From Gammaproteobacteria bacterium TMED112 (lineage in GTDB: Bacteria > Pseudomonadota > Gammaproteobacteria > Magnimaribacterales > TMED112), in contig NHFN02000003.1 in NCBI GenBank assembly GCA_002170245.2, positions 1-35,699 on the forward strand: 35,699 nucleotides of DNA, read 5' to 3'. Made by a program: the position numbers and the translations under genes. Positions within the stretch are counted from its first letter, which is position 1, and each line of letters begins with the position of its first letter. Below, one piece after another: positions 15,364 through 21,286 of the stretch. The notes beneath the pieces were generated by a model. That model searched no databases. It worked only from the letters and a program-made list of their open reading frames with translations, and was not told the origin of the DNA.

Positions 15364-16284
15364 ATGCATAAAATTATTGCCTTTTATAAATTCTGTAAAA
15401 TCCAGGATCTAGAAAAACTTCAAGCTTCACTTAAAAAAGATTTTAAAAAACTTGGTATATTTGGCACGATAATTATCGGCAAAGAAGGAATTAATGGCAC
15501 TATATCTGGCACAGGTATAAATCTAGATAAAGCAATAAGGCTGCTTAAATCTCATAGTGAAATTGTAAATCTTGATAAAAAAATATCTTTTTCAAAGAAA
15601 CCGCCCTTCATAAGATTAAAAATTAAAATTAAAGATGAAATAGTAACAATGGGTATAGAGGGTATTAGCCCAATAAAACAATCTGGTAGTTATATTGATT
15701 CCGATCAATGGAATGCGCTTATTGAAAGTAATAATACAATTTTAATAGACACTAGAAATAATTATGAATATGCAATTGGCACTTTTAAAAAATCAATCAA
15801 TCCAGAAACTTCAAATTTTAAAGAATTTCCAAAGTGGCTAAAAAACCAAAAATTTAGTGAAAATGATAAAAAACACAAAACTATTGCCATGTTCTGCACA
15901 GGGGGAATAAGGTGTGAGAAAGCCTCAGCTTTTATGAAGAATGAGGGTTTTAAAAATGTTTATCAATTAAAAGGCGGTATTCTTAAATACTTAGAAAATA
16001 CCGATACTAAAGATAGTCTTTGGCAAGGAGAATGTTTTGTTTTTGATGATCGGGTATCAGTAAAACATGATTTAACTGAAGGGAAATATGATTTATGTCA
16101 TGGCTGCAGAATGCCAATTACTCAAGAAGATAAATTGTCTTCTTATTACGTTAAGGGGGTTTCTTGCCCTAATTGCGTAAATTTAAAAACTCCTTTGCAA
16201 CTTCAAAGATATAAAACTAGGCAAAAACAAATTAATATTGCAAAAACTAGAAATAGCCATCACCTTGGACCCAAAATTAGCTAG
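15364..16284 (+). CDS. trhO: tRNA uridine(34) hydroxylase TrhO/YceA (rhodanese domain)
   Basis: [48 protein letters not shown]...CPNCVN tail. Confidence 0.93.
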
Positions 16285-17134
16285 CTTTTTGTCGATTAGA
16301 AAAGAATACGCCAAGAAATATTAGAGCTGAACCTATCACCATATCTAAAGTAAATATCTCATCTAGAATTAATATGCCTAAAGATATACTTGATACCGGA
16401 ACTAAATACGTTACAAACGAAGCATTTAGTGATCCAATCCTTTTAATAAGTTTTATAAAAATTACGTATGCTAAAGATGTATTAATTACTCCTAGAATTG
16501 CGATATAAAGCCAGGATGTAGTACTTATTGATAAGTTTGCTGCACTGTAGTTTATTAAAAATGGAGAAAGCAATACAGCCCCCACAATAAGAGATCCCAT
16601 GCCAATGAATGAATTATTTATTTGCGATGGAGTATTTGCTAAATATACCCCAGATATTGCATAGGATAATGATGCAATTACACATAAAATTGATGAAAAT
16701 AAGTCTAATTCGCCTGATGGACCTGCTAATAAAAATAACCCTGAGAATCCTATTAAAACTCCAAGAAGCTTCATATAAGAAAATTCATCTCTGTATAAAG
16801 TAAATAGTATTAATGCAGTAAGAATTGGTACTGTCGCTTGTATAACAGATAGAGAGCCTGCTCCAAGATGCACTGATGCATAAGCAAATAAGGTAAACGG
16901 TAAAGCAGTGTTAAGCAGTCCTATCAATAAAATAGGAAATCCATGATCGTGAAAAGAATATTTTCTTAACTTGTTCAAAAAGAAAGGAGCAATAAATACA
17001 GCAGCAAACATCATCCTTAATGAAACGATCTGAAGAGGCTCTAAACCCTCTAGAATAAGTAATCTTAAGAAAAGAAATGAACCGCCCCAAAATAGTGAAA
17101 CTAGTAATAATGTTAAAAAATCTCGTGTATTCAT
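16277..17134 (-). CDS. EamA/DMT superfamily transporter
   Basis: Ten hydrophobic segments; LLLVSLFWGGSFLFLRLLI; FSYMKLLGVLIGFSGLFLL; SLGILILDEIFTLDMVIGSALIFLGVF. Confidence 0.9.
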   Translation of the reverse strand: MNTRDFLTLLLVSLFWGGSFLFLRLLILEGLEPLQIVSLRMMFAAVFIAPFFLNKLRKYSFHDHGFPILLIGLLNTALPFTLFAYASVHLGAGSLSVIQATVPILTALILFTLYRDEFSYMKLLGVLIGFSGLFLLAGPSGELDLFSSILCVIASLSYAISGVYLANTPSQINNSFIGMGSLIVGAVLLSPFLINYSAANLSISTTSWLYIAILGVINTSLAYVIFIKLIKRIGSLNASFVTYLVPVSSISLGILILDEIFTLDMVIGSALIFLGVFFSNRQKAS

Positions 17135-17137
17135 GGT

Positions 17138-17162
17138 AAAAAAAAGCCTCTTTAAAAGAGGC
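17138..17162 (-). terminator. Rho-independent terminator directly upstream of the EamA start codon
   Basis: Minus strand GCCTCTT-tta-AAGAGGC followed by T8; ATG at 17134. Confidence 0.8.
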
Positions 17163-17202
17163 TATTCATAAAGTTAAAACCTTATGTCGGACTTAGGCCA
17201 TA

Positions 17203-17330
17203 ATTGGTGTCAGCAATTACCTCCTAATAATCCTGAATTATTTTTAATACTAATTTGGATCACCTCCTTCGGCTGAGAATTAATCTAACACACCAAATTT
17301 CTCTGCGTAAATAGGGCGTGGGACACCTAA
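17203..17330 (-). promoter_or_regulatory. Candidate structured cis-regulatory RNA (riboswitch-like) in the EamA leader
   Basis: Closing stem ATT(a)GGTGTC / GACACCAAT; inner hairpin GAGAA...TTCTC; GCCGAAGGAG and TTCAGG...AGGA core; preceded by promoter-like TTCAAT-N17-TAGTAT (17358-17363, 17335-17340); followed by terminator. Confidence 0.5.
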
Positions 17331-17347
17331 TAAAATACTAATTGATT

Positions 17348-17518
17348 TCAGAAAATAATTGAAGAGTTTTTATTGTTAATTTGGTTGTTTTCTTCTTTTA
17401 GTGAGCATAAAAATAACTCTGCTGATTTAAAGTCAGAATTGAAGTACTGAAAAGCAACTCGTTCAATATATGCATTATCTATTGGTTGCTTAAGAAAATA
17501 GTTAATTAAATCTTTCAT
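17348..17518 (-). CDS. Unannotated small ORF (56 aa) behind a LexA box
   Basis: MKDLINYFLKQPIDNAYIERVAFQYFNSDFKSAELFLCSLKEENNQINNKNSSIIF*; ATG 1 nt from an SOS-box palindrome. Not in the ORF track (below length cut-off). Confidence 0.5.
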   Translation of the reverse strand: MKDLINYFLKQPIDNAYIERVAFQYFNSDFKSAELFLCSLKEENNQINNKNSSIIF

Positions 17519-21001: not shown

Positions 21002-21286
21002 TTATTTTAATTTTTTAACCTTATCTTCAATAACTACCTTACTTGCTGAAATCCATAAATCTGGTTGAGGCTCTTCTGATTTTTTTTTCCTAGATATCCA
21101 TGCAAAATTAATTGCAGACAGTACAGCAACAATCAGAAGAAAAGCCCAATATGCATCCTTTTTGTTTTTGTCCCAAACATCGATGGTTAACATCAACGCA
21201 ATCACCACAAGTCCGATATTTAATACCACACTAAGTATTCTAAAATTAATCATTTCTAAGTCACCTGGAGGCAAAAACCTTTCCAA
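21002..21286 (-). CDS. Small membrane protein of unknown function (two TM segments); start more likely at 21253
   Basis: MINFRILSVVLNIGLVVIALMLTIDVW... and YWAFLLIVAVLSAINFAWI hydrophobic segments, charged C-terminus. Confidence 0.6.
   Translation of the reverse strand: MERFLPPGDLEMINFRILSVVLNIGLVVIALMLTIDVWDKNKKDAYWAFLLIVAVLSAINFAWISRKKKSEEPQPDLWISASKVVIEDKVKKLK

Follow-up and report, generated by a model that had tools for sequence, protein, structure and literature searches.

An intergenic RNA element in a SAR86 genome

The stretch of DNA analysed here, the window, comprises positions 1 to 35,699 of contig NHFN02000003.1 (35,699 nucleotides) from Gammaproteobacteria bacterium TMED112, a SAR86 genome of 1.02 Mb. 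Our subject is an RNA element on its minus strand (17363-17138, promoter included), which lies between its 5' neighbour, a gene for a TonB-dependent receptor (20819-17592, minus strand), and a gene for an EamA-family transporter (16277 to 17134, minus strand; ATG at 17134-17132). An earlier reading made from the letters of the DNA (the sequence-only reading) had described a riboswitch-like leader here and had proposed either a divergent glycine riboswitch or a new class. All the motifs that it listed were found on the minus strand where it had placed them, and the identity of the downstream gene is borne out by PF00892 (E 4e-38). We found that the element is a structured RNA conserved across the SAR86 order, and that what had been taken for its aptamer core, GCCGAAGGAGGUGAU, is an extended Shine-Dalgarno (SD) sequence.

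The element begins with a promoter-like region, as the sequence-only reading had noted: a -35-like box TTCAAT (17363-17358), a 17-nt spacer and a -10-like box TAGTAT (17340-17335), with a predicted transcription start site at about 17327-17330. A promoter-like AT-rich stretch also lies upstream of the element in relatives, and loci of two of the four families of the RNA (f2 and f3) carry TATATAAT or GTAAAAT-like boxes at the position of the -10 box. The element ends in an intrinsic terminator (17162-17138), GCCUCUUU/AAAGAGGC plus U8 (noted earlier as GCCTCTTTTAAAGAGGC plus U8), which stops 3 nt before the EamA ATG.

Conservation across SAR86 and beyond

A covariance model built from 19 loci (R1) matched 137 of the 203 genomes of the SAR86 order, among them 35 of the 40 near-complete ones, and 21 of its 22 genera, with exactly one copy each. 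The proposal that the RNA is structured, conserved and equipped with a promoter and a terminator of its own is upheld. Pattern matches in named genomes are almost all from 'SAR86 cluster bacterium'; SAR86A, B and E are among them, as is the isolate TMED112-A1 (CP097968). By DNA similarity the element is present in 7 of the 21 genomes of the window's genus, each time with EamA downstream; the genomes of this genus without a recognisable copy are G002, G003, G005, G006, G008-G012, G015-G017, G019 and G020.

The option of a new class gained support. No Rfam family matches the RNA: a search of the window with Rfam 15 gave no family over the gathering threshold, and the searches of the window at E ≤ 10 and of ten relatives and two outgroup loci at E ≤ 5 gave only tRNAs and sub-threshold matches. 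Two known single-copy RNAs were rejected as identities, transfer-messenger RNA (tmRNA, RF00023), a regular copy of which lies elsewhere in 21 of 21 relatives, and 6S RNA (RF00013), which was found elsewhere in the genome in 20 of 21. A CsrA/RsmY-type RNA, suggested by the GGA motifs, was also set aside; there is a weak partial RsmY match and no array of hairpins with GGA.

Outside the order, R1 gave no match in a class sample of 369 genomes or a phylum sample of 399 genomes, its sensitivity being too low for strong negatives. A pattern scan of GTDB led to locus L184 in a 3.6-Mb genome (G947, NVUL01) that is labelled SAR86 and is probably something else, with an R1 E value of only 0.245. A second covariance model (R2), run on the order of this organism, led in turn to locus L304 in a 4.9-Mb Gammaproteobacteria genome (G1168; E 0.011). 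Both copies are intergenic and close with a terminator, and neither is followed by an EamA gene. L184 and L304 are probable distant homologs in larger Gammaproteobacteria, which suggests that the RNA class is wider than SAR86. No homolog was found in E. coli, and the only match on plasmids (44 nt, within a coding gene) is due to chance, as are the pattern matches L181 and L206, which lie within coding DNA. Viral contigs gave no true match, and a phage origin was rejected.

Two pseudoknotted domains around a single-stranded linker

We assessed the helices with one sequence per genus, using as control strands swapped between genera (5000 permutations); this swap test was used in place of an anchored-window test on shuffled sequences, which was judged too blunt. 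From 5' to 3', the predicted order is the 5' strand of a first pseudoknot (PK1a), a helix with its own pseudoknot (P2/PK2), a single-stranded linker with the SD sequence, the P3/P6 hairpin, the P5 hairpin and the terminator.

We found that the 5' domain is an H-type pseudoknot, in which the loop of P2 is paired with the stretch that immediately precedes the SD sequence. P2 itself (CACGCC, 17320-17315, with GGUGUG, 17294-17289) covaries across genera, with 0 of 5000 permutations reaching the observed value. PK2 joins GAGAA within the P2 loop (17303-17299; CAGGG or AAGGG in other families) to UUCUC immediately 5' of the SD sequence (17279-17275; CCCUG or CCCUU elsewhere). The sequence-only reading had seen these two strands as a simple inner hairpin; the pairing stands, but it is a pairing of loop and strand across CACGCC/GGTGTG, not a hairpin.

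The 3' domain is also well supported by compensatory changes. P3 (GGAUU, 17233-17229, codons 8-9 of the ORF described below, with AAGUCC, 17194-17189) was matched in 0 of 5000 permutations and pairs as GGAAC/GTTCC, GGAATA/TATTCC, GGAAATT/AATTTCC or GAAATC/GATTTC in different genera, while P6 (UAAUUG, 17219-17214, codons 12-14, with CAAUUA, 17206-17201) was matched in 10 of 5000 and appears as AACTG/CAGTT, TGCCTT/AAGGCA or GTCTT/GAGAC. The apical loop UGACAC (17212-17207), whose UGAC is invariant in the SAR86 loci read, would pair back to the 5' end of the RNA. This is PK1, the outer pairing of GGTGTC (17327-17322) with GACACC (17211-17206) noted earlier, and it proved real: anchored at GAC, it reached 15 of 5000, with the partners GGTGTC/GACACC, TTGTC/GACAA, CGTC/GACG, TAGTC/GACTA and CTGTC/GACAG. 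Covariation in relatives, which the sequence-only reading had named as a check, is thus present in P2, P3, P6 and PK1. In the L304 outgroup copy a candidate PK1 partner (UAACG/CGUUA, 5 nt) was seen by eye and could be chance, and the stop codon UAG lies inside a very stable hairpin (z -3.7).

With PK2 abutting the SD sequence and the stop-codon loop paired to the 5' end, two pseudoknotted domains enclose the ribosome-binding site. The single-sequence folding z-score of the element in the window is weak (-1.55), as is expected of a pseudoknotted fold. Downstream of this core, P5 (CAUAAGG-UUUU-AACUUUAUG, 17186-17167) is replaced by a variable hairpin in other families, and further hairpins lie between P5 and the terminator in f2 and f4. 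Families f2 and f4 (for example L016 and L061) have an additional hairpin in the 3' part, whose loop is conserved around GUUGAGAUAC; it is missing in f1 and f3.

A maximal Shine-Dalgarno sequence and a 14-codon frame

The extended SD sequence AAGGAGGUGAUCC (17269-17257; the motif AAGGAGGTGATCC) is a perfect complement of the SAR86 16S rRNA 3' tail GGAUCACCUCCUU. In general, the linker starts with AGGAGGUGRUC, which complements the tail CTGGATCACCTCCTTA as read in relatives, over 11-13 nt. Among 36 diverse representatives GGAGGUG.UC is invariant, and the one variable base changes from A to G with pairing kept by G-U. In G026 (L292) the 16S tail reads CCTCCTAA as against CCTCCTTA; the tail of genus g2 may differ by one base.

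A putative start codon lies 7-9 nt past GGAGG (8 nt in the window, AUU at 17254-17252). In the SAR86 loci read it is AUU, replaced by AUC in certain f3 genera, while AUG, GUG and UUG never occur there; among 74 distinct ORFs of 14 codons, 69 start with AUU and 5 with AUC. An alternative GTG start (within GTGATCC) was rejected as it is out of frame in f3 and in L304. In the window the ORF runs from AUU to UGA (17254-17210) and would encode (M/I)SIKNNSGLLGGNC before the stop, which is part of the P3/P6 apical loop. The sequence-only reading had missed the extended SD sequence, the AUU start codon and the ORF.

The frame is free of stops beyond neutral expectation. We found no in-frame stop in the 814 codons of the 74 distinct ORFs, where about 30 are expected from column frequencies, while the other two frames of the same ORFs contain 63 and 39 stops. 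The only change in ORF length is an in-frame loss of 3 nt (L166, 13 codons), and the spacer between SD sequence and AUU tolerates 1-nt insertions and deletions. The L184 ORF has exactly 14 codons (AUU...UGA), and that of L304 has 13 or 14 and ends at UAG within a hairpin loop. Codons 4-7, which lie outside the helices, show 28 non-synonymous and 4 synonymous changes, the ratio expected of unconstrained residues. From these sequence patterns we conclude that translation of the ORF, more than its peptide, seems to be under selection, and that the peptide, at least in its middle, is not.

Two further uses of the region were rejected. Sequestration of the SD sequence by RCCUYYU (codons 13-14) is possible in f2-f4 (AGGAGGU/ACCUUCU) and is not a general switch, because it is absent in f1 and g2. 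A prfB-like +1 frameshift at (C)UUUUGAC is unfit in spacing and P-site codon in most families.

A candidate ribosome-gated RNA

We give about even chances to the interpretation that the element belongs to a new class of ribosome-gated structured RNA, built for capture of the 30S subunit and for opening by a translating ribosome. The predicted transcript, about 190-260 nt long, is basically stand-alone. AUU or AUC would sit at P-site distance from the SD sequence and open the 14-codon frame. The AUU start of E. coli infC is rejected by initiation factor 3 (IF3). By analogy the 30S subunit may be bound tightly and initiation may be rare, as AUU and AUC would be rejected by IF3. In Staphylococcus aureus, infC (AUA), cvfC1 (AUU) and ccpN (AUA) have conserved non-AUG starts with extended SD sequences, and the non-canonical starts tested there gave about 10% of AUG expression in poor medium (PMC13009471). 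A ribosome that does initiate would unzip P3, P6 and PK1 and terminate in the loop, toggling the RNA between closed and open forms. This switch may act on the stability or lifetime of the RNA or on 30S occupancy or the 30S pool, or it may set the 3' part free; for f1 and f3, a further output may be readthrough into EamA, which has its SD sequence in the terminator arm.

More tentatively, and with less confidence than in ribosome gating as such, we consider that the RNA might be a stand-alone, single-copy sensor that monitors the initiation machinery (free 30S subunits, IF3 activity) and acts in trans. The full complement of the 16S tail would dock the 30S subunit and the never-AUG start would make initiation conditional; one ribosome pass through a frame indifferent to its peptide would then flip the closed and open states, the loop kissing the 5' end.

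Several observations count against ribosome gating. The RNA is dispensable in part of the window's genus, because it is absent or unrecognised in 14 of the 21 genomes, including two near-complete ones (G008, G009); a sub-clade has probably lost it or carries a strongly diverged copy. PK2 is weak by permutation (426 of 5000), because its strands are conserved; on alignment A4 both sides had changed in 4 of 5 pairs, including GAGA/UCUC in f1 versus AGGG/CCCU elsewhere. AUU and AUC are assigned as start codons by position and frame only. The stop expectation takes alignment columns as independent, and related sequences share history. Lastly, membership of the outgroup copies is no more than probable (R1 E 0.245 for G947; R2 E 0.011 for L304).

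The RNA and EamA

We next turn to the transporter gene. EamA follows the RNA in 76 of the 130 SAR86 loci read, and its presence divides by family: it is directly downstream in 7 of 7 f1 loci and 69 of 70 f3 loci (the exception lies where its contig stops), and all 53 f2 and f4 loci lack it. In those f2 and f4 loci that were inspected, a convergent gene usually comes after the terminator. Since EamA is also missing after the RNA in both outgroups, the RNA is basically stand-alone, the aptamer-terminator-transporter layout of the sequence-only reading does not hold in general, and the RNA does not keep the place expected of a cis-acting riboswitch, ahead of genes of a single pathway.

For the majority of f1 and f3 loci, EamA starts 2-12 nt past the terminator, with up to 47 nt in some and 39-91 nt in genus g9; several of these distances are overestimated because a T-run in the terminator loop was taken. 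The window EamA must be transcribed through the RNA, as the gap is 3 nt and its sole SD candidate, AAAGAGG, lies in the 3' arm of the terminator. As read from this arrangement, the RNA is also a transcribed leader of EamA in the window, reached by readthrough, and is not a transporter leader in general. EamA proteins of f1 and f3 are 28-33% identical, compared to 45-68% among f3 genera and a median of about 45% for other f1-f3 reciprocal best hits.

These data bear on the strongest rival, in which the RNA is a cis-acting leader that senses a metabolite or translation on behalf of EamA: either P2/PK2 would serve as aptamer or the ORF as sensor, with the terminator as expression platform. The near-constant presence of EamA in f1 and f3 speaks for it, as do the gaps of 3-12 nt in most f1 and g11-g14 loci, which are too short for another promoter, and the EamA SD sequence in the window's terminator arm; moreover, given the low f1-f3 identity, the link between RNA and EamA may have arisen twice. 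We nonetheless regard it as unlikely, since the 53 f2 and f4 loci and the outgroups carry the same RNA with no EamA, the g9 gap leaves room for a promoter of EamA's own, and no conserved antiterminator was found; the one candidate, the PK2 loop with the terminator arm, has only 4 nt of generic complementarity and was rejected.

Among the neighbouring genes, a UPF0176/rhodanese gene (plus strand, 15364-16284) is convergent with EamA and overlaps it by 8 bp (16277-16284). A 94-codon ORF that begins with TTG and matches no Pfam family occupies 21002-21286, flanked by the TonB receptor gene and queF.

Peptide gene, structural RNA or riboswitch

A tiny mRNA whose product is the 14-residue peptide (a signal, an export substrate or a membrane peptide), with the structure tuning its translation, would explain why frame, length and stop are conserved. 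One pattern recurs among the peptides, I-[SN]-I-x-x-x-[STA]-G-x-x-G-x-x-F, codons 8-14 show a synonymous excess (22 non-synonymous to 31 synonymous changes), and EamA proteins are exporters or permeases. The freedom of codons 4-7 (28:4) argues against a selected product, however, and helices P3 and P6 account for the conservation of codons 8-14. The C-terminal residue varies (F, C, I, S or A), and an invariably non-AUG start would be unusual in a gene that yields a product. We consider a peptide gene quite improbable.

Still more doubtful is a purely structural non-coding RNA, in which the SD-like element and the open frame would be by-products of constraints on the RNA. Codons 1-3 and 8-14 are indeed constrained as RNA and the start codon is never canonical, but in-frame stops are missing (0 against about 30, expected for the most part at codons 4-7 and 10, which vary), and out-of-frame stops do occur. 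The one deletion is in frame, the L304 stop is UAG, and complementarity to the 16S tail is preserved via G-U.

A glycine or divergent glycine riboswitch, to which the strings GCCGAAGG and UCAGG bear a resemblance, has next to no chance of being correct: RF00504 has no match in the window (gathering threshold or E ≤ 10) or in twelve relatives (ten relatives and the two outgroup loci, E ≤ 5), the three-helix core (GCCGAAGG, CAGG..GGAC) fails because GCCG is conserved in a few f1 species only and varies elsewhere (GTAC, GACC, ACCC and others), the conserved strings are the SD sequence and ORF codons, and the covarying helices are P2, PK2, P3, P6 and PK1.

Relation to known systems and significance

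Several known systems resemble parts of this RNA. E. coli infC, with its AUU start, combines long pairing of SD and anti-SD sequences with an initiation-limiting start codon of the AUU type. The same combination is found in S. aureus infC, cvfC1 and ccpN (PMC13009471). Unlike these, which are real protein genes, the SAR86 ORF has 14 codons, is largely unconstrained and lies within a pseudoknotted small RNA. The leaders of the alpha operon (bound by S4) and of rpsO (S15) also have a pseudoknot that straddles the ribosome-binding site and is able to trap the 30S subunit, but they precede a regulated ribosomal protein gene, whereas the SAR86 RNA is terminated, often stand-alone and has no matching Rfam family. 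Leader-peptide attenuators of the trp and pheA type share a short ORF that overlaps hairpins and a terminator before a gene; the SAR86 RNA differs in having no codon run or conserved antiterminator, in its variable peptide and in the lack of EamA in half of its families. With the glycine riboswitch (RF00504) it shares only short look-alike strings; the helices differ and there is no covariance-model match. Like 6S RNA and tmRNA, which are stable partners of RNA polymerase or the ribosome, it is single-copy, and both of those exist separately in the same genomes.

In the papers searched on SAR86 and small or noncoding RNA we found no regulatory RNA described for these bacteria, although an earlier description elsewhere is possible, and the text of a 104-motif survey makes no mention of SAR86. 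The novelty lies in the family and in the way its features are combined; in a broad view, the element adds to the structured bacterial RNAs that contain a short ORF.

Few groups of bacteria are as abundant in the surface ocean as SAR86, whose genomes are streamlined. Retention of the RNA once per genome in almost all SAR86 genera indicates that it is likely important to the physiology of these bacteria. If the ribosome-gated interpretation is true, the element would represent a new mode of ribosome-operated RNA, which combines a conserved AUU or AUC start and a maximal SD sequence with a frame selected for being translated, not for the peptide, and with a stop codon located in a pseudoknotted loop.
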